Assembly: GCF_009749525.1 (NCBI RefSeq)
Contig: NZ_WOAC01000010.1
Location: forward strand, 1 to 64,000
DNA length: 64,000 nt
Reading direction: 5' to 3'
Source of the DNA: Mesorhizobium xinjiangense
GTDB taxonomy: Bacteria; Pseudomonadota; Alphaproteobacteria; Rhizobiales; Rhizobiaceae
Every line of letters begins with the position of its first letter. Within the stretch, counting starts at the first letter, position 1. The notes below the pieces were generated by a model that worked only from the letters and a program-made list of their open reading frames with translations, was not told where the DNA came from and did no database searches. The position numbers were made by a program, and so were the translations under genes. Positions 2,023 to 31,808 of this stretch are shown here, piece by piece.

Positions 2023-4474
2023 GGTCAGTCTCCTTCTCGGCTTGGGGGGTGAGATTGCTGAGCTCTGGAATGAGGTCGGCCGCCCAGTCGACACCGCGTT
2101 CGCGCAGCCAGGCATCGAGGAAGCCGGGGCCGCCGTGTTCCGCGAGGATGCGGGCGATTGCGGTCTGATCGGTCTTGGCGGAAGTGGCGCAGAGCGCGAG
2201 TGCCACTTCGCTCAGGCCCAGTTCGAAGAGCCGGTTGCCGCGCCGCGACTGGCAGTAATAGTCACGCTTGGGCGTCGCCCGCGCGAGGATCTCGATCTGG
2301 CGGTCGTTGAGGCCGAAGCGCCGGTAGATGGCAGTGATCTGCGGTTCGATCGCCCGCTCGTTGGGCAGGAGCAATCGCGTCTGACAACTCTCGATGATGG
2401 CCGGCGCGACGGCTGATCCGTCGATGTCGCTGAGACTTTGCGTAGCGAAGACGACGGACGCGTTCTTCTTTCTGAGCGTTTTCAGCCATTCGCGGAGCTG
2501 GCCGGCAAAACCCTCGTCGTCGAGCGCCAGCCAGCCCTCGTCGATGATGATGAGCGTTGGCGAGCCATCGAGCCGGTCCTCGATGCGGTGGAAGAGATAG
2601 GCGAGGACCGCCGGCGCCGCGCCGGTGCCGATCAGGCCCTCGGTCTCGAAGGCCTGCACAGAAGCCCCGCCGAGATGCTCGGCCTCCGCGTCGAGCAGAC
2701 GGCCATAGGCGCCGCCGACGCAATAGGGCTTGAGCGCCTGCTTGAGGTCGTTGGACTGAAGCAGCACGGCAAGGCCGGTGATCGTGCGTTCCTCGACGGG
2801 CGCCGAGGCGAGTGAGGTTAAGGCCGTCCAGAGATGCTCCTTCACCTCCGGCGTGATCTCGACGCCCTCACGCATGAGAATCGCCACGACCCAGTCGGCG
2901 GCCCATGCGCGCTCGGCCGTTTCCTCGAGACGGGAAAGCGGCTGCAGCGAGACGCTGTGCTCGTCGCCTTCGGTGAGACCGCCGCCGAGATCGTGCCAGT
3001 CGCCGCCCATGGCAAGTGCCGCGGCACGGATCGAGCCGCCGAAATCGAAGGCGAAGACCTGGGCGCTCGCATAGCGGCGGAGTTGCAGCGCCATCAGCGC
3101 CAGAAGCACGGACTTGCCCGCGCCGGTCGGACCGACGACGAGCGTGTGCCCGACATCGCCGACATGAAGGGAAAACCGGAACGGGGTAGAGCCTTCGGTC
3201 TTGCCGAACAGCAGTGGGGGCGCTGCAAAGTGCTCGTCCCGTTCCGGCCCCGCCCACACGGCGCTGAGGGGGATCATGTGGGCGAGATTGAGCGTGGAGA
3301 TCGGCGGCTGGCGGACATTAGCGTAGACATGTCCGGGCAGCGAGCCGAGCCACGCATCGACGGCATTGATCGTTTCGGGCATCGCGGTGAAGTCGCGGCC
3401 TTGGATCACCTTTTCGACCAGGCGCAGTTTCTCGTCGGCGACGCGCGGGTCGGTATCCCACACCGTCACCGTCGCAGTGACATAGGCGACACCGGCATAG
3501 TCCGCGCCGAGCTCCTGCAGGGCGAGGTCTGCATCAGCCGCTTTGTTCGACGCATCGGTGTCGACCAGCACCGAAGCCTCGTTGGTCATGACCTCCTTGA
3601 GGATCGCGGCGATCGACTTGCGCTTGGCGAACCACTGGCGCCGGATGCGGGTCAGTAGCTTGGTCGCATCGGTCTTGTCCATCAGGATGGCGCGGGTCGA
3701 CCAGCGATAGGGAAAGGCGAGCCGGTTGAGTTCATCGAGCAGACCAGGCGTGGTCGCCGTCGGGAATCCGGTGATCGTCAGCACGCGCAAATGCTCGTCG
3801 CCGAGTCGTGGCTCGAGCCCGCCGGCAAGCGGTTGGTCGGCAAGCAGCGCGTCCAGATAGATCGGCGTCTCGGGCACGCGGACGCGGTGGCGCTTCGTGG
3901 AAACGCAGCCATGCAGATAGGTCAGTGTCTCGGTGTCGTCGAGCCAGCGGCATTCGGGCATGAAGGCGTCGATCAGGCGCAACACGCGATCGGTGCGGTC
4001 GGCGAAGCCGGTCAGGACCTCGTGCGCATCGACGCCCTTGGTCTCGCGGCCTTCATAGAGCCAGCTCTCCGCGCGCGCGGCGTCCTCGGCCGGCGGCAAA
4101 TAGGTGAAGGTCAGGAAATAGCTCGACTCGAAGTGCGCTCCGGCCTCCTCGAAACTTGCCTTGCGCTCGGCATCCACCAGCGCGGATGCCGCGTCGGGAA
4201 AGCGGCTGTCGGGATAGCTGTTCGAGGGATGGCGCTGCGCCTCCACGAAGATGGCCCAGCCCGAGCCGAGACGGCGAAACGCATTGTTCAGCCGGCCGGC
4301 GACGGCGATAAGCTCGGCCGGAACCGCGGAATCCAGGTCCGGTCCCCGGAACCGTGCCGTGCGCTGGAAGCTCCCGTCCTTGTTGAGGACGACGCCTTTG
4401 CCCACGAGGGCCACCCAGGGCAGGTAGTCGGCGAGCTGGGCGTTGCGGTTGCGGTATTCGGCGAGGTTCATCAT
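2009..4474 (-). CDS. trbE: TrbE, VirB4-like conjugation ATPase
   Basis: An 821-residue ATPase that powers assembly or substrate transport of the Trb type IV secretion system at the inner membrane. Walker A (GPTGAGKS) lies near residue 450 and Walker B (LIIIDEGW) near residue 645, followed by a conserved FATQSLSDI-type segment. The N-terminal half matches the CagE/TrbE/VirB4 domain in layout. The length is usual for TrbE. Two consecutive ATG codons occur at 4474 and 4471, with GAGAGGAA upstream. The gene sits between trbD and trbJ in the canonical order. Confidence 0.95.
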   Translation of the reverse strand: MMNLAEYRNRNAQLADYLPWVALVGKGVVLNKDGSFQRTARFRGPDLDSAVPAELIAVAGRLNNAFRRLGSGWAIFVEAQRHPSNSYPDSRFPDAASALVDAERKASFEEAGAHFESSYFLTFTYLPPAEDAARAESWLYEGRETKGVDAHEVLTGFADRTDRVLRLIDAFMPECRWLDDTETLTYLHGCVSTKRHRVRVPETPIYLDALLADQPLAGGLEPRLGDEHLRVLTITGFPTATTPGLLDELNRLAFPYRWSTRAILMDKTDATKLLTRIRRQWFAKRKSIAAILKEVMTNEASVLVDTDASNKAADADLALQELGADYAGVAYVTATVTVWDTDPRVADEKLRLVEKVIQGRDFTAMPETINAVDAWLGSLPGHVYANVRQPPISTLNLAHMIPLSAVWAGPERDEHFAAPPLLFGKTEGSTPFRFSLHVGDVGHTLVVGPTGAGKSVLLALMALQLRRYASAQVFAFDFGGSIRAAALAMGGDWHDLGGGLTEGDEHSVSLQPLSRLEETAERAWAADWVVAILMREGVEITPEVKEHLWTALTSLASAPVEERTITGLAVLLQSNDLKQALKPYCVGGAYGRLLDAEAEHLGGASVQAFETEGLIGTGAAPAVLAYLFHRIEDRLDGSPTLIIIDEGWLALDDEGFAGQLREWLKTLRKKNASVVFATQSLSDIDGSAVAPAIIESCQTRLLLPNERAIEPQITAIYRRFGLNDRQIEILARATPKRDYYCQSRRGNRLFELGLSEVALALCATSAKTDQTAIARILAEHGGPGFLDAWLRERGVDWAADLIPELSNLTPQAEKETDHEDS

Positions 4475-16507: not shown

Positions 16508-17053
16508 TCACCGCGTCGGCGCGAGCCAGACGAAGCGGCCATCGCCGTCTTCGTCGGTGTAGAGTGGGATCGCTCGACCGATGACGGCGGAGGCCGGAAG
16601 CGGACCGAAGTAGCGGCCGTCGAGGCTGTCGCGAACCTGCCAGTTCATGAGGAAGAGTTCGTCATCGGCAACGATACGGCAGCCCTGCCAGACGGGCAGA
16701 GGACGACCGAGGCGATCACGATCCAGGGCGTCCCCCATCGGCACGGCGTCGACCGTGATCGCGCGGCCGGTACGGCAGACGCGCTGTCCGGGCAGCGCGG
16801 CGATGCGCTTCATCAACGGCACGCCGCGACCGATATAGCCGCGTTCGACCATGAAGCTCTCAAGCGGCTCGGGCGGGCGCAGGGCGACCAGGTCGGTGAT
16901 GTCCGGGGACCGTTCCGGCTCGATGGCGTAGAGGCCGATCGGCGTGCTGGCCGAGGCGTTCCAGATGATCCTGGGCGCGAAGGACACGATCGACAGGACG
17001 CCGACGAGCGACGCGGCGCAGGCCGTGGTGATGGCGTAGCCGAGCCGGATCAT
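16508..17053 (-). CDS. traF: TraF-like S26 peptidase (conjugal pilin maturation)
   Basis: A 181-residue S26 family serine peptidase with one N-terminal membrane helix. The catalytic Ser lies in SASTPIGLY (about residue 36) and the general-base Lys in LMKRIAALPG. In IncP plasmids TraF trims and cyclises the TrbC pilin, and a TrbC gene is present here. The ATG at 17053 overlaps the DUF2840 stop (ATGA), which indicates coupling. A 45-bp gap separates it from DUF736. Confidence 0.92.
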   Translation of the reverse strand: MIRLGYAITTACAASLVGVLSIVSFAPRIIWNASASTPIGLYAIEPERSPDITDLVALRPPEPLESFMVERGYIGRGVPLMKRIAALPGQRVCRTGRAITVDAVPMGDALDRDRLGRPLPVWQGCRIVADDELFLMNWQVRDSLDGRYFGPLPASAVIGRAIPLYTDEDGDGRFVWLAPTR

Positions 17054-19549: not shown

Positions 19550-19831
19550 TCAGCGCGGGGAGCGGCGGTTACGGACCGGCGGCACTGTTTCGTGGCGCTT
19601 CGCGGGCAGGACAGTCCCGCGTGGGTCGGATGTCGAAACGATGGTGCCGCGGTCAGCCCAGGCCTGCAGATCGTCGATGGAGTAGACCACGCGGCCACCG
19701 AGCTTTCGGTAGGCCGGACCGGTGCCATAGGTGCGGTGCTTTTCGAGCGTGCGCTCGGAAAGGCCGAGAAACAGCGCTGCCTCGGGTGTGCGCAGGTAAC
19801 GTGGCGGTATGCCGGCGATCGTATCGGCCAT
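19550..19831 (-). CDS. AlpA/MerR-like helix-turn-helix protein, candidate excisionase
   Basis: A 93-residue protein with an HTH_17 (AlpA-type) domain: RYLRTPEAALFLGLSERTLE followed by YRKLGGRVVYSIDDLQAW. In the Mesorhizobium symbiosis ICE an equivalent small protein, RdfS, is the recombination directionality factor and is switched on by FseA. The ATG at 19831 follows GGAGG. Its place between the FseA-like locus and repA, at the head of the transfer operon, fits that role. A purely regulatory role is the alternative. Confidence 0.8.
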   Translation of the reverse strand: MADTIAGIPPRYLRTPEAALFLGLSERTLEKHRTYGTGPAYRKLGGRVVYSIDDLQAWADRGTIVSTSDPRGTVLPAKRHETVPPVRNRRSPR

Positions 19832-19961
19832 GGTCGAACCTCCGTGTTCTCGATGAGGGCCGCTGAGGTTCAGCGGCGGGTCGAGAGCACGGTGGCGACG
19901 AAAGCGCCCCGGCACGATGTCGAAGATGTCGTTGGAAAATCGACACCCCTGAAAGCGGGTG

Positions 19962-20513
19962 TCAGGATCTGCGCGGCCGGCGCAGCAGCGTGCGATAACC
20001 GCCTTCGACGAGCTTCAGCCCGTCGCGCGCCAACCTGATGGTGGTTTCGCGCAGGGCATTTCCGACCCAGGAAGCGGCATCGATGCGGTGTTGCAGAAAG
20101 AGGATTTGCGCGATGGTGCGGTAAGTCGCGCCCTCGATGCGGGCGTCGACGACACGCAGCATCTCACGCAGGCGATATCGGCGCTGCAATGTCAGCCGCG
20201 GATCGGGTGAGGCTGGCGGATGGCGAAGTGCTGCCCAGAACCGGTTCAGAGCCTCTATGCGATCGGGCGTGTCTTCATCAAGGAGAAGCGTAGCCGCGAA
20301 CGCCACACCTGGCTCCGGCATATCGAGCAAAACCGCTGAAAAATCAGCGCCACCGATGCGAAGCTGCCGATAAGCGCCACCTCCATCGGCATCACGGCTA
20401 ATCGTGGCAAGCTGTCGGCTATCAAGGGGATCGTTGCCGGGCTGGTCGGGTGCAGCGCCGAGAAAGATCATGGCGGGGTTCGCGGAAGGGGTCCAGAAGA
20501 TGGGTGCTTCCAA
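19962..20513 (-). CDS. DUF2285 domain protein, second part of an FseA-like activator
   Basis: A 183-residue frame with a DUF2285 domain (RLTLQRRYRLREMLRVVDAR and LVEGGYRTLLRRPR at the C-terminus). It has no convincing start: TTG at 20513 is the first candidate and lacks a ribosome site. The frame is open upstream to about 20603 and there encodes ATDPSLSALEAPIFW. That segment completes the DUF6499 protein in the +1 frame. It is therefore most likely expressed as a frameshift fusion with 20422-20730, as in FseA of ICEMlSymR7A, an activator of excision. Confidence 0.8.
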   Translation of the reverse strand: MEAPIFWTPSANPAMIFLGAAPDQPGNDPLDSRQLATISRDADGGGAYRQLRIGGADFSAVLLDMPEPGVAFAATLLLDEDTPDRIEALNRFWAALRHPPASPDPRLTLQRRYRLREMLRVVDARIEGATYRTIAQILFLQHRIDAASWVGNALRETTIRLARDGLKLVEGGYRTLLRRPRRS

Positions 20514-20730
20514 TGCGCTCAGGCTCGGGTCCGTAGCGAAATCGCAACCCCCATTTGTCGGAGAGTGCGGCGGCGCCGGATCGGCTGAGCTGTCCGTTCT
20601 TGGTCAGTTGCAAATAATCCTGTCGATAGTCCGGGTTTCGTCTGAGGAATTCCCAGGCAACTGCAGCGGGATCGAGATCAGAAATGTACTTATAAGCGGC
20701 TGCGGACCGCCAATCGCCTCCCTCGGGCAT
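20422..20730 (-). CDS. DUF6499 domain protein, first part of an FseA-like activator
   Basis: A 102-residue frame with the DUF6499 N-terminus DWRSAAAYKYISDLDPAAV and WEFLRRNPDYRQDY. The ATG at 20730 has GGAGG upstream. Homology-like sequence stops after KWGLRF (about residue 64); the remaining 38 residues are Arg/Pro-rich and non-conserved. The expected continuation lies in the +1 frame. TTT followed by C at 20541-20538 would let tRNA-Phe re-pair with TTC and give KWGLRF-ATDPSL. I infer a regulated +1 shift that limits production of the full activator. Confidence 0.82.
   Translation of the reverse strand: MPEGGDWRSAAAYKYISDLDPAAVAWEFLRRNPDYRQDYLQLTKNGQLSRSGAAALSDKWGLRFRYGPEPERIGSTHLLDPFREPRHDLSRRCTRPARQRSP
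20538..20541 (-). other. Candidate +1 ribosomal frameshift site (UUU-C)
   Basis: Read on the minus strand, the phenylalanine codon TTT is followed by C. Slippage of one base keeps Phe pairing (TTC) and moves the ribosome from the DUF6499 frame to the DUF2285 frame. Both frames are open from 20603 to 20422, so the exact site could differ. This position is chosen because it gives the most natural fused sequence. Confidence 0.5.
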
Positions 20731-25714: not shown

Positions 25715-26620
25715 ATGACCGTCCCTTCGCATCCATCCGGCAACGCGCTTCGCGAGCGCATGATCGAAGACATGTCGCTGCGCGGCTTCACCGAGAAGAC
25801 GCGGCATGACTATATCCGTTGCGTGAAGGCGTTTGCAGCCTTCATCGGGCGTTCGCCTGACACAGCGACGCCCGAGGACTTGCGCCGTTTCCAACTGCAC
25901 CAGACAGAGGCCGGCATGCAGCCGCCGGGCATCAACAGCGCGGTTTCGGCCCTGCGCTTCTTCTTCACGGTGACGCTCGACCGGCGCGATCTGGCCCGCC
26001 GTCTCACCGTCGTGCGCCAGCCGCGCAAGCTGCCCGTGGTGTTGAGCGTCGAGGAGGTGGCGCGGCTGCTCGAGGCCGCACCCGGGCCGAAGTACAAGGC
26101 TGCCTTTGGCACGGCCTATGGCGCTGGGTTGCGGGTCTCCGAGGTGGTGGCGCTCAAGGTGAGCGATATCGACTCGACGCGCATGCTGATCCGCGTCGAG
26201 CAGGGCAAGGGGCGCAAGGATCGCGATGCCATGCTGTCGCCACAACTGCTCCGACTGCTGCGCGCCTGGTGGCATGAGGGCAAGCGCCGCGGGGTGATGC
26301 TGCCGCGGGGTTGGCTGTTTCCAGGCCGCAATCCGATCACGCCGCTGTCCACGCGGCAGCTGAACCGCGCCGTCCACGCCGCGGCGCACGCCGCCGAGAT
26401 CGGCAAGCGGGTGACGCCGCACACGCTGAGGCATTCCTTCGCCACCCATCTGCTGGAACAAGGCGTCGACATTCGTGTGATCCAGGTCTTGCTCGGACAT
26501 GCCAAATTGGAGACGACCGCGCTTTATGCCCGCGTCGCCACCAAGACGATCCGCACCGTAACGAGCCCGCTCGACCGCATCAGGCTGCTGGCAGACGACG
26601 AGGCGCGACCGGACGGGTGA
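25715..26620 (+). CDS. Tyrosine recombinase associated with IS91-type transposase
   Basis: A 301-residue phage-integrase-type recombinase. The N-terminal SAM-like domain includes GFTEKTRHDYIRCVKAFAAF. The catalytic domain shows Arg in GAGLRVSEVVAL, then HTLRHSFATHLLEQG (His-x-x-Arg), GHAKLETTALY with the second His and the nucleophilic Tyr. The ATG at 25715 follows AGAGGAG. Such recombinases precede IS91 transposases in many alphaproteobacterial IS91 elements and are not the ICE integrase. Confidence 0.9.
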   Translation: MTVPSHPSGNALRERMIEDMSLRGFTEKTRHDYIRCVKAFAAFIGRSPDTATPEDLRRFQLHQTEAGMQPPGINSAVSALRFFFTVTLDRRDLARRLTVVRQPRKLPVVLSVEEVARLLEAAPGPKYKAAFGTAYGAGLRVSEVVALKVSDIDSTRMLIRVEQGKGRKDRDAMLSPQLLRLLRAWWHEGKRRGVMLPRGWLFPGRNPITPLSTRQLNRAVHAAAHAAEIGKRVTPHTLRHSFATHLLEQGVDIRVIQVLLGHAKLETTALYARVATKTIRTVTSPLDRIRLLADDEARPDG

Positions 26621-26630
26621 CGCGGCGGCG

Positions 26631-27827
26631 GTGCGCCGCCCGTCCCTGGAGGTCGCCGACATCTTCCATCGCCATGGCGCCGCCTGGCGCGCGGCCCATG
26701 CCGGCCATGTGAGCCTCGGCCAGTTGAAGGTGATGTCGGCGATCGAGAGTTGCCGCACCGCCGCCCTCGGCGGTCACGTCGAGGCCTGTGAGGACTGCGG
26801 CCACAGGCGCATTGCGTTCAACAGCTGCCGCGACAGGCACTGCCCACGGTGCCAGGGCGCGGCGGCAAGGGAATGGCTGGCCGCGCGAAAGGCCGATCTG
26901 CTGCCGGTCGGCTACTTCCACGTCGTCTTCACCCTGCCGGCCGAGATCGCCGCCATCGCCTATCACAACAAGGCGGTGATCTATGATCTCCTGTTCCGCG
27001 CCGCCTCGCAGGCCATGCTCACCATTGCCGCCGACCCCAAGCACCTGGGCGCCCGCATCGGCATCACCGCCGTGCTGCACACATGGGGCTCGGCGATGAC
27101 CCATCACCCGCATGTCCATATGATCGTGCCCGGCGGCGGCATCGCGCTCGACGGGGAGCGGTGGGTGTCCTGCCGGCCCGGCTTTTTCCTGCCCGTGCGC
27201 GTGCTGTCAAAACTGTTCCGACGGCTCTTTCTCGACAAGCTCACGGAGGCCCATGCCGCCGGCCGGCTGATGTTCTTCGGCGATCATGCCGGTTTGAGCG
27301 AGTGCCGCGCCTTCACTCAATTCCTGGCGCCGCTCAGACGCAAGAACTGGTTTGTCTACGCCAAGCCACCCTTCGCAGGACCCGAGGCCGTGCTGGCCTA
27401 TCTGTCACGATACACCCACCGCGTCGCCATCTCCAACAACCGCCTGATCGCGCTCGACGAGGCCGGCGTGACCTTCCGCGTCAAGGATTACCGCCGCAAC
27501 GGCCAGGAGCGCTACCGCACCATGACGCTCGAGCCGGACGAGTTCATCCGCCGCTTCCTGCTCCACGTCCTGCCCAAGGGCTTCCACCGCATCCGCCATT
27601 ACGGGCTGCTGGCCAGTGCCCACGCCAAGGCCAACATCGCCCGCGCGCGCGACCTTCTCGCCGCGCCCCAGCCCACAGCCGAGGGCGATGATAGCGCCCC
27701 AACCGATTGGCGGCCGCCATGCCCGTGCTGCGGCGGCCGCATGATCATCATCGAAACCTTCGAACGCGGCGGCAACGCCCGCGCGCCGCCATCCGGCAGC
27801 CGGGCAAGCGGAGCTCGAGCTTCATGA
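26631..27827 (+). CDS. IS91-family HUH transposase
   Basis: A 398-residue rolling-circle transposase. The N-terminal zinc-finger region reads CEDCGHRRIAFNSCRDRHCP with further CxxC, the HUH motif is HHPHVHMIVPGGG, and the tyrosine motif is YLSRYTHRVAISNNR. A GTG at 26631 starts it 10 bp after the recombinase stop, so the two are probably one unit. The C-terminal residues after CPCCGGRM are basic and variable. IS91 elements can carry neighbouring DNA by one-ended transposition, and the defence island lies just beyond its 3' end. Confidence 0.9.
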   Translation: MRRPSLEVADIFHRHGAAWRAAHAGHVSLGQLKVMSAIESCRTAALGGHVEACEDCGHRRIAFNSCRDRHCPRCQGAAAREWLAARKADLLPVGYFHVVFTLPAEIAAIAYHNKAVIYDLLFRAASQAMLTIAADPKHLGARIGITAVLHTWGSAMTHHPHVHMIVPGGGIALDGERWVSCRPGFFLPVRVLSKLFRRLFLDKLTEAHAAGRLMFFGDHAGLSECRAFTQFLAPLRRKNWFVYAKPPFAGPEAVLAYLSRYTHRVAISNNRLIALDEAGVTFRVKDYRRNGQERYRTMTLEPDEFIRRFLLHVLPKGFHRIRHYGLLASAHAKANIARARDLLAAPQPTAEGDDSAPTDWRPPCPCCGGRMIIIETFERGGNARAPPSGSRASGARAS

Positions 27828-28324: not shown

Positions 28325-29467
28325 ATGATTGAATGGCGCCGTGGTGGCTGGACGGGCAGCTTGAACAAACGGGTACGACAGGAAGTTCGCGAACATATGC
28401 GGACTAATTCCGCAGCACAGCGATGCCGTTATCCTTGGTCTCTGCGGTTGTTAAAGAGCTTCTTTGCTGACCGCTCATTTTTGCAGTTCGTCGCAATTTA
28501 CATCGGCATTGCCGCCATCGTGGCGCTGCTCGAGATTGTCATCCCGCGCTATGTGCCGGAACTCCTCCCGCAATGGACGCGATCCGGTCCTCCGGGCGCC
28601 GACATCAAGGTGCTGCTGACCAACGTTGCCAGCTACCTCATCACGGCACAAGTTGGGGTGTTGGGCGTAATTGCCATCGCAATTGGCTTGGTGACCCTCA
28701 TTGCACAGAGGGAAGACGCAGGAACCGATGTGAAGGTCTACTATCACGAGTCTTTCGCCGTGGAGGTTGTGGCGAGCAGCCTTGCGCTGCTGTTCGTGCT
28801 AATTGCGCAGTTGCTCTGGCCACTGCAATTTCTGCTTCATCGCTTCGGCGAGGGCACTGAGCTTCAGATATTCAAGCTCTTTCTGACGGCCGTCCATATG
28901 GGTTGGCTGCTGGTGAATCTCTCGGGACTCGCGCATTTCATCACAACGACATTTCGTTTTGTTCAGAAGTCTGCGCGCGAGCAGCTTCGCGAACGCTACA
29001 CTGCGAATGTCGTTCAGCCCGTGGAGATGACGAGGCAGCTCCGCCTCAAACTCTATGAGATGGCCGGTTCCGACCTGATCGAGACCGATGCGACTGGTGG
29101 GCGCGGGACACGACAAGACGATCTTGTCGTTACATTCGGCTTTGATTGGGGCAAGCCGGATGATGTGGAACTCGAGAAGAGCTTCGTTCGACCAGCGGTC
29201 GTTCACGATGTGAGAGTCCGCTGGGTGCGATGGGTTGCCACGCGTTGGTGGCGGCGCTGCCTTGCCAATCCATCGGGCGGGCGCAACTCTAGGGTCGGCG
29301 GACTTGCAGCTGACAAGCCACTCCTCGTGTTCACACCGCAACTCGATGAGCCACTTAGGGGAAAGGTCGCGTGGTGCTGGCGGCGAGGTGGCGTGCCCCT
29401 GACCCGTTTCGAGCGCTGGGTCGTGGAGTGGAGCTTCAGGTTTAGGAAGGCATCAGATGAAGCATGA
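28325..29467 (+). CDS. Four-span membrane protein of unknown function
   Basis: A 380-residue protein with four predicted membrane helices: about residues 50-75, 102-127, 144-168 and 184-208. A soluble C-terminal domain of about 170 residues follows, with many Arg and Trp and a FGFDWGKPDDVELE segment. I do not recognise a family. The frame overlaps the next gene by 11 bp, so the two are very likely a functional pair. ATG 28325 has AAAGGGGG upstream; ATG 28397 is an alternative. Base composition is lower in GC than the ICE core, consistent with separate acquisition. Confidence 0.75.
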   Translation: MIEWRRGGWTGSLNKRVRQEVREHMRTNSAAQRCRYPWSLRLLKSFFADRSFLQFVAIYIGIAAIVALLEIVIPRYVPELLPQWTRSGPPGADIKVLLTNVASYLITAQVGVLGVIAIAIGLVTLIAQREDAGTDVKVYYHESFAVEVVASSLALLFVLIAQLLWPLQFLLHRFGEGTELQIFKLFLTAVHMGWLLVNLSGLAHFITTTFRFVQKSAREQLRERYTANVVQPVEMTRQLRLKLYEMAGSDLIETDATGGRGTRQDDLVVTFGFDWGKPDDVELEKSFVRPAVVHDVRVRWVRWVATRWWRRCLANPSGGRNSRVGGLAADKPLLVFTPQLDEPLRGKVAWCWRRGGVPLTRFERWVVEWSFRFRKASDEA

Positions 29468-31808
29468 CTTGCCGACACCCGATCAGATAATGGAGGAACT
29501 GGCCGACAAGGCTGCAGTTCAAATCGATCGTCTCGCGCCGGTGGCATTTGACGCGGCGCTAGACGAACTGATCCGATACCACCAATTTCTGCTTTCCCTG
29601 AACGCTACGAGTACACCTGATGGAGCCGCGTTCAGCTATGCTGAAGTCGCGAGCGGCTTCCTTCCGCGCATTCCGCATCTGCAATGGCTTAGACAGTATC
29701 GCAGGCTCTTCGAACGGGCTGCCGATAGGATCGGCGAGGACTCATCTTTCATTGAGAAGCTTGCCTACGTACCGCTCAGGTTGTTGCCAGGCCCTGCTGA
29801 TCCCGAACCGACCTCGGCAGTTGTCATAGCCATATTGAACCTGGGCCCGACGCTGATGCATCGGTTGGAGGATTGGGTCACAAAACGAACTGTAGCCGAA
29901 AATCCAGAAGGACAAGCTGCAAGCCAGCGGTTGTCACTGGCTGGATCGGACCGCAAGGCGTATGAAAGCGTCCTGCCCAACATTGTCGGTGCCTGGGAAA
30001 GATTGCTGCAAGGCCGGCCATCATTTTACCAGTGGCGGGACAAGCACGAACTGGACGCCACCGAGCAGTGGTCTGTCTTCGCCAAAAGTTGGCCGTTTCT
30101 TTCTCAGCATCTGCATAATACTGCTTATATGCTGGCCGTTGCGGTCTGGAATGAGGACGAGGTTGGTGCCGATCTGTTTCGAGATGCGCTCGTCCGTTGG
30201 CCGGAGAATCTGAGCCATGAACTCGCTGATCAGGCTGATTTGATCAATCGGCGATTACTGTATCCTGATGTGTTATCCTTGGAATGGTCCGCAGCGCTCG
30301 AACGTGTGAAGCCGATTCTGCCGCACTTTCTGCCGTCTCCGTCACCGGATCAATTGTTTAATTGCATACTGCGAAGCGCACACGACGACTGCATTCTGCT
30401 GACAGCTGCGCTGCTGCTGTCTTGGCACATAGATGAGAAGCAGATCTCCGATATCGGTGGACGCACGGCCGCAGCGCTGCTCCGTCGGGAGCTAGCCGAC
30501 GGTGATGATGCGATCGCGGACTCGCCAGCGGCGGGGCCTTCCTTCCGCTCTGTCTTCTTGGATTTCCTGCGAGTTGACATCGCTGGCGAGCGATTTCGCG
30601 ATGAGGGTTACGGCCGCGAGTTGGATAGGCTGGTGTCGACGCTGGATGGCATGAGCGAGCGCCGCGTTGTACCTGGCCGCGTGTTCAGCCCCTCCACGTT
30701 GCACGATCGAGAAGGTTTGTACTCGTCAATCCTGACTATTCTCGTCGCTCTCGCGCCGTCAGAAGGTGACGACGGGTTGGGGCAGCGAATTGGCGAATTG
30801 GCGGAGAACGAGCCGGCACTGCCAGATGCCGACCGTTCGCTGCGCAATCTTCTCCAGCATCTCCGCGCTCTCTCAGATCGGCTGGGTAGCCTGCCAGCCA
30901 AGCTGGACCGTGGCATAGCTGCGATACGAGCGGACATCAACGTCGAAGCGGCATCTGCCTCGCTCAAGACAGTAGTAGATCGGATATGCGCAACGATTGA
31001 GGGAGCGCGAGAGAGGCGGCTCACAGAGAGGCCAGTGGATGGAAAGAAGATTGAGCAGCTTCGTTCAGCCATTGATCAGGCATTGCTTACCCCGCCTGCT
31101 AGTATCCATTCGTTCTTTCGCGGCTACGGCCTCGGTAGTGAGGAAACAACAGACAGCGCCGAGGCCTTCGAGTTTAGGATTACCGGAATCAAAAAGGGCC
31201 AGCTCGTTGAACCTCCAATGGATTTTGACATGGTTAGTTCCACTGAAAGCTTGGCCAACATGACGTGCAACAATGCAGCCAGACACATATGGGCATCGCT
31301 CACACGGCGCCCGAGAGAAAATCTAGAGTTGGATTTCCAGATTCAGGAACTGGGTTTCTGGCGTGGCGTTGTGCAAGCGGCCGGCCGTGTTGGCCCGGAC
31401 CCGGTCTTGCTGATCTCAAACCGAGAGGAAGGCCGCGTCTTGCGCCGACGCTTCATCTACGTACGGGGAGACGAAAAGCCGCCGGTCAACGTAGTGCGAA
31501 AGCCACGCGATGATACGGGTGATCTCTACATCGCCACGATTGACGGTATCGATGTCCACGGCGCCGATTTCGAGCCGGGCATCGCTTGGCTGTTTTCTGC
31601 TCGCTCCCTGCAGGCTGTCACATACCACGCAGTCGGCGACTCAAATCGTCACGTTGAACTGAGCTTTGAATCAGACGACGGAATTACGGGCGCGCTGCTT
31701 GTTCGCTATAGGCAGTCGGTCGAATGGGCGGACACACCCGTCGTCGAGATCAAATTGCGAGCTCCGGATGCTGACTCTACCGATGGGCCGGTATCGCCTG
31801 CCACATAA
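29457..31808 (+). CDS. Large soluble protein of unknown function, partner of the membrane protein
   Basis: A 783-residue, largely helical protein without signal peptide or clear membrane spans. No nucleotide-binding motif, nuclease motif or protease triad stands out. The middle (about residues 480-560) is coiled-coil-like with repeated Leu/Arg/Asp, and the C-terminal 200 residues look strand-rich. The ATG at 29457 overlaps the 3' end of the membrane gene. A large effector or scaffold tethered to a membrane partner is a typical layout for anti-phage systems, but here it is only an inference from context. Confidence 0.72.
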   Translation: MKHDLPTPDQIMEELADKAAVQIDRLAPVAFDAALDELIRYHQFLLSLNATSTPDGAAFSYAEVASGFLPRIPHLQWLRQYRRLFERAADRIGEDSSFIEKLAYVPLRLLPGPADPEPTSAVVIAILNLGPTLMHRLEDWVTKRTVAENPEGQAASQRLSLAGSDRKAYESVLPNIVGAWERLLQGRPSFYQWRDKHELDATEQWSVFAKSWPFLSQHLHNTAYMLAVAVWNEDEVGADLFRDALVRWPENLSHELADQADLINRRLLYPDVLSLEWSAALERVKPILPHFLPSPSPDQLFNCILRSAHDDCILLTAALLLSWHIDEKQISDIGGRTAAALLRRELADGDDAIADSPAAGPSFRSVFLDFLRVDIAGERFRDEGYGRELDRLVSTLDGMSERRVVPGRVFSPSTLHDREGLYSSILTILVALAPSEGDDGLGQRIGELAENEPALPDADRSLRNLLQHLRALSDRLGSLPAKLDRGIAAIRADINVEAASASLKTVVDRICATIEGARERRLTERPVDGKKIEQLRSAIDQALLTPPASIHSFFRGYGLGSEETTDSAEAFEFRITGIKKGQLVEPPMDFDMVSSTESLANMTCNNAARHIWASLTRRPRENLELDFQIQELGFWRGVVQAAGRVGPDPVLLISNREEGRVLRRRFIYVRGDEKPPVNVVRKPRDDTGDLYIATIDGIDVHGADFEPGIAWLFSARSLQAVTYHAVGDSNRHVELSFESDDGITGALLVRYRQSVEWADTPVVEIKLRAPDADSTDGPVSPAT

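Follow-up and report, generated by a model that had tools for sequence, protein, structure and literature searches.

The 64,000 nt of Mesorhizobium xinjiangense DNA analysed here (contig NZ_WOAC01000010.1 of assembly GCF_009749525.1; hereafter the window) contain two overlapping reading frames at 20730–19962 on the reverse strand. The first (20745/20730–20422) encodes a DUF6499 domain (PF20109, E 1.8e-22) with the motif AWEFLRRN, and its ATG at 20730 is preceded by GGGAGG. The second, listed as running from TTG 20513 to a stop at 19962, encodes a C-terminal DUF2285 domain (PF10074, E 5.8e-31), which is positively charged (net +10 over 82 residues). Both frames are open between 20603 and 20422, and the coordinates given for this overlap in a preliminary description of the locus check out, as does the one-base skip at TTT-C (20541–20538) by which it joined the two parts: reading one base over at this point gives a fused product of 255 residues, passing through WGLRF-ATDPSLSALEAPIFW. 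The putative shift site, TGG GGG TTG CGA TTT C, occupies 20553–20538; beyond it, frame 0 continues as a 38-codon tail, and the +1 frame (20537–19962) encodes a middle part followed by DUF2285. With up to two mismatches allowed, the window has a single occurrence of the 16-mer TGGGGGTTGCGATTTC, where 0.03 would be expected (one was present in 3 of 100 shuffles). The AWEFLRRN motif, the basic C-terminal domain and the conserved +1 site between the parts are all features of the FseA family, and the assignment of the gene to FseA-type activators with a +1 frameshift site, a kind already known, is well supported by the sequence. Scans against NCBIfam returned no match for either fseA half or for the QseM-like and rdfS-like proteins described below, and PADLOC returned none for five window ORFs. 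The Yersinia protein RovC is an ordinary one-frame protein. Profiles built from the two fseA halves match its structure (PDB 6xz5) at E 3.6e-6 and 1.8e-5, while the single fused sequence reaches only 0.072; RovC activates a type VI secretion system (PMC10359603).

The genes around fseA lie on the same strand. Directly upstream, 21132–20857 encodes a lone DUF2285 protein that is acidic (net charge −6) and matches QseM (PDB 7uqt, E 3e-17), and upstream of it lies a small HTH_3 protein (21480–21235, E 2e-5), a possible controller judging by its position. Downstream of fseA there follow an rdfS-like HTH_17 protein (19831–19550, with its ATG at 19831; PF12728, E 7.4e-10), presumably a regulator of excision or transfer, and a replication initiator protein A family (RPA) gene (19538–18651, E 3.2e-86). 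Domain scans further identified a ParA-type ATPase (18439–17801), a DUF3363 relaxase (15120–13363), a TraG/VirD4 coupling protein (13340–11355), a VirB11-type ATPase (T2SSE, 6182–5085) and a VirB4/TrbE-type ATPase (4474–2009), and gene order shared with the annotated plasmid loci L135 and L136 points to a TraF-like S26 signal peptidase at 17053–16508. A similar order was found in seven annotated plasmid stretches, from Sphingopyxis, Sphingobium, Rhodopseudomonas (two), Indioceanicola, Agrobacterium and Haematobacter, whose gene tables are incomplete: a small gene, a DUF2285 gene, fseA, HTH, RPA, ParA (six of seven tables), DUF2840 and DUF736; in six of the seven, a lytic transglycosylase gene closes the stretch. 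In L135, L136 and L138 the DUF6499 part is unannotated.

A close known system is FseA (Msi172-Msi171) of ICEMlSym-R7A from Mesorhizobium japonicum R7A (PMC10359603). With it the window gene shares DUF6499 and DUF2285 in overlapping frames, the +1 site and UGGGGG at WGL, and the two elements have in common an rdfS-like gene, inverted hexamers 16 bp apart and a QseM partner (PMC10359603). The QseM-like antiactivator, the RdfS-like protein and the conjugation genes fit the published circuit. Unlike in R7A, where quorum control involves a TraR gene on the same element, the window's contig (C2, 175 kb and maybe not the whole element) carries none of the genome's three TraR-like genes (PF03472), which lie on contigs C3 and C7. 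Elsewhere in the window, a tyrosine recombinase adjoins an IS91-type transposase at 25715–27827 on the forward strand and is not evidently the element's own integrase, and two large ORFs side by side (380 and 783 aa) at 28325–31808, also on the forward strand, drew no match from Pfam, NCBIfam or PADLOC at E 0.001.

The junction was compared across homologues, as the preliminary description had proposed, using home-made profiles (E 1e-5) on the window and 142 loci from other genomes, one MAG and named plasmids. Of 116 distinct DUF6499 domains, 114 have a DUF2285 part behind them and two do not; the +1 relation is shared by 109 of these 114 pairs, so a chance mutation in the window gene is unlikely. 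Five pairs are in frame: L093 truly so, L053, L055 and L056 as distant relatives, and L138 through re-shifting, since it is +1 at the junction and carries another indel further downstream. This L138 copy (Rhodopseudomonas pBAL398.2), with its extra indel, is either non-functional or a sequencing error. In a wider set of 180 loci, 128 pairs are +1 and 18 in frame, and four domains lack a second part. When the fused protein was searched by tblastn against 72,556 plasmid records, 91 records matched, 62 of them covering at least 80% of the query, and 29 of the 60 listed rows came in two pieces. Separately, H48–H51, H53 and H56–H59 are near full-length single-piece matches among those listed, mostly on beta- and gammaproteobacterial plasmids, which suggests that they are in-frame FseA forms; H49, H53, H58 and H59 (loci L143–L146) are each annotated as one CDS.

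The two frames could instead stem from a simple frameshift mutation, or a sequencing error, in a gene that was once in a single frame. Such in-frame homologues do exist (L093, L169 and L173, besides the four with a single annotated CDS), and the nearest homologue recovered shares only about 53% identity, so there is no near-identical copy against which to test the window gene itself. Close homologues in one frame, which the preliminary description would have taken as a sign of simple mutation, were not found within that range of identity. A search of genome contigs for related loci returned one relative, L005. Against mutation or error stand the shared +1 relation, the codon constraint described below, and a second fseA in the host genome, on contig C24, which is also +1 and shares CGA TTT C with the window copy. 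We consider this explanation exceedingly improbable.

The codons of the site are strongly constrained in a strict set of 105 +1 rows, from which L050, L052, L054 and L064 were dropped, their profile match ending short of the junction. TGG is present in all 105. All 104 phenylalanines at the site are encoded by TTT (209 of 784 elsewhere in the genes), and the one row without phenylalanine reads TGT; arginine is encoded by CGA in 66 of 76 (334 of 3184, or 10%, elsewhere), glycine by GGG in 77 of 104 (190 of 1595 elsewhere) and leucine by TTG in 69 of 98 (287 of 2876 elsewhere). The following base is C in 93 rows and T in 12, so that in the 104 TTT rows the +1 codon is always UUY, readable by tRNA-Phe. 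Clustering at 50% identity leaves the pattern in place, with TTT-Y in 35 of 35 representatives, CGA in 20 of 23, GGG in 25 of 35 and TTG in 22 of 32. For comparison, the Trp was located in 14 of the 18 in-frame rows, L145, L168 and L174 being read at the wrong Trp. In those 14, CGA encodes 2 of 10 arginines, both in the re-shifting copies L138 and L084, which retain the whole site and then shift again later (L084 was scored +1 in the 114-pair count); five in-frame rows read TGG GGN (T/C)TG CGC CTG CTG, and the other four have no CGA. Confinement of CGA to these two copies is again at odds with a mutation or error, and conservation of the site's codons, largely lacking in the in-frame homologues, would be expected if a slippery site were under selection. 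RNA structure downstream of the site did not exceed that of shuffles (mean z −0.10, n=62), a result that is neutral for frameshifting. The CGA statistic was not met in the literature examined, outside which lies a 2015 PNAS paper that is reportedly about FseA frameshifting. UGGGGG and a conserved site were noted by Jowsey et al. 2023, who counted about 61% of 4709 FseA homologues as two-frame (PMC10359603).

The two parts might instead be made separately, from independent or coupled starts, and then assemble. TTG 20513 could start the second frame, and Azorhizobium homologues are said to have their own start and end codons (PMC9601964). Yet in 29 of the 105 rows the +1 frame offers none of ATG, GTG and TTG between the upstream stop and 18 codons past the junction, and only 28 of 105 have an ATG in that stretch. 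The +1 frame is kept right after the junction, with Pro +4 and Trp +15 each conserved in 58 of 59 representatives, and the proline lies ahead of the TTG. Separate starts would also leave the TTT-Y and CGA constraint unexplained, and we regard them as very unlikely.

The preliminary description took the run-on of the first frame past the junction as a departure from R7A, a point that did not hold up. Frame 0 runs on for at least 30 codons beyond the site in 53 of 105 homologues and for at most 10 in 45, and the Msi172 product of R7A also extends past the shift (PMC10359603, Fig. 3 legend). Judged by its homologues, the long window tail is ordinary. One could still suppose that the long-tailed frame-0 product is a selected second product, given 38 codons in the window and 32–40 in its 20 nearest relatives. 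With random synonymous codons, however, the window and these 20 would have a mean tail of 36.1 codons against the 37.6 found; over all 105 rows the mean is 25.5 against a null of 32.5 (sd of null means 2.4; both medians 30), so the tails are, if anything, short. Frame 0 is also less conserved after the junction than the +1 frame (mean top-residue fraction 0.33 vs 0.49), and selection for the tail appears very improbable. All three of these rival explanations were rejected.

The proposal of the preliminary description, an FseA-like activator made by +1 ribosomal frameshifting, is well supported by the frame relation, the codons of the site, the QseM-like and rdfS-like neighbours and the gene order. 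We give a probability of about 0.93 to the reading that this is the fseA-type gene of a conjugative element, in which a +1 slip would yield an activator that binds the box described below and a QseM-like protein would act as antiactivator. What the analysis shows is the sequences with their domains, the conservation of the frame relation and of the repeat, the constraint on codons, and the gene order; slippage, its low rate, DNA binding, activation and antiactivation are inferred, in part from the published R7A system. The element would be integrated or plasmid-derived. Ribosomes would start at ATG 20730, and most would stay in frame 0 and make the DUF6499 domain followed by a tail of 38 residues without an obvious function. 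A smaller share would pause at TGGGGG-TTG-CGA while tRNA-Phe slips from UUU to UUC, that is, by +1, and would go on to make the 255-residue DUF6499-DUF2285 activator. A dimer of this activator would bind the inverted repeat at 19945–19918 and switch on the rdfS-like gene together with the transfer genes that follow, and the QseM-like protein (21132–20857) would restrain it by binding DUF6499.

The candidate FseA box, TGTCGA-N16-TCGACA (19945–19918, reverse strand), lies between fseA and the rdfS-like gene. It is the only match to TGTCGA-N15/16-TCGACA in the window and one of four in the genome. The published FseA box is a pair of inverted hexamers separated by 15 or 16 bp, with one hexamer at 62–67 before the rdfS start (PMC10359603). 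Hexamers and 16-bp spacing agree in the window, but the 3' arm ends 86 nt before the rdfS-like start, some 20 nt further away than the published hexamer. An rdfS-like gene begins within 600 nt in 77 of the 105 rows, and 41 of these 77 loci have perfect inverted hexamers of the form N4GA-N15..18-TCN4 (shuffles: mean 1.0, max 3 of 77), a form settled after seeing the sequences and applied equally to the shuffles; 36 loci have no perfect hexamer repeat. Free of that form, at spacers 15–16, a perfect hexamer pair occurs in 31 of 77 loci against 9.2% of shuffles. In 40 of the 41 perfect-box loci the repeat ends 85–89 nt before the rdfS-like start, and in 19 of 41 the spacer is 17 or 18, outside the published range. 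The hexamer letters vary between loci, both arms changing together. Between box and rdfS-like gene lies a conserved leader (19918–19831, reverse strand) with CGCCACCGTG and a CCGCTGA/TCAGCGG inverted repeat. A further repeat, of the GTGCCG type and 1 of 32 bases off that of the second fseA element, was seen in L265 (G000:C45, 3494–3525), after genes that look trb-like by eye, 86 nt before an ORF at 3612 and ahead of a serine recombinase; recombinase genes may likewise be under FseA control.

The variation of the box is accompanied by variation in the protein. Over 40 of the 41 perfect-box rows (L045, with different spacing in the protein, was left out), it is columns 164 and 167 of the +1 part that track the hexamer type most closely. 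These fall within R163–R168 (fusion residues 227–232; codons at 20051–20034, reverse strand), and 164 and 167, beside R163 and R168, match the spacing of R243, R247 and R248 of R7A FseA, where alanine changes cut activation (PMC10359603); by this spacing-based alignment the stretch is presumed to lie in the recognition helix, H3, with E164 and I167 in the window. A rule was read off these 40 rows; in the classes now proposed, residues 164/167 go with hexamers as follows: E/I with TGTCGA, D/I with TGGGGA, A/I with TGAGGA, D/M-L with GTGCGA, H/K with GGGCGA and N-or-S/R mostly with the GTGCCG type.

The rule was written down before 80 further regions (one a filler) were drawn, and the held-out set also took in L150–L180, whose boxes were unexamined when it was fixed; scoring covered 89 rows from L150 on with less than 95% identity to the first set. 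The residue pair falls outside the rule in 66 of these and within it in 23, where the predicted box was the unique best match in 18, tied in 2 and another in 3 (shuffles: mean 6.7, max 14 in 5000). Held-out rows with a perfect box agreed in 14 of 15 cases (shuffled mean 4.4, max 12). Below 60% identity to the first set, 7 of 11 were as predicted, with 2 ties and 2 others, a result not significant alone (359 of 5000 shuffles reach 7). Among the 17 first-set loci that lack a perfect box, the predicted box came out best in 6, tied in 5 and gave way to another in 6 (shuffles: mean 1.5, max 5). Three D/I rows, L083, L139 and L123, contradict the rule, their best matches resembling GTGCGA or GGGCGA. 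Relatedness is incompletely controlled in these statistics. In 62 non-redundant rows pooled from both sets, columns 164 and 167 rank 1 and 2 of 172 in pairs below 50% identity, and 1 and 5 in pairs below 40%; one lineage of six rows at 60% linkage has three box types, each with matching residues. In the N-or-S/R class an rdfS-like gene is in view in 14 of 51 loci, and with spacers 12–21 tried, a perfect hexamer pair at spacer 20 was found in 11 of the 14 (shuffle mean 1.2), reading GTGCCG in 7, GGGCCG in 3 and GGGTCG in 1.

These data suggest that the DNA site recognised by each FseA-type switch is set in part by two amino acids. That FseA proteins fall into DNA-specificity classes, mainly through 164 and 167, with helix and box changing together and elements in one cell separately controlled, seems to us somewhat better than an even bet, the odds being lowered by the mixed N-or-S/R boxes and the differing box distance. 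The host genome itself holds two: the window copy, with E/I and a TGTCGA box, and the contig C24 copy, with N/R and a GTGCCG box. The covariation was not found in the main text of PMC10359603 (supplement aside) or in the other literature searched.

The window gene, itself of a known kind, is one more likely case of a conjugative element's master switch throttled by ribosomal frameshifting. Gene callers tend to split fseA-type genes, and CGA TTT Y after TGGGG is a sharp signature that helps to separate programmed shifts from broken genes. The covariation of helix and box is the part worth following. If the rule holds, it could be predicted from sequence which activators are able to switch on which other elements, giving a testable way into crosstalk among elements that share a cell.
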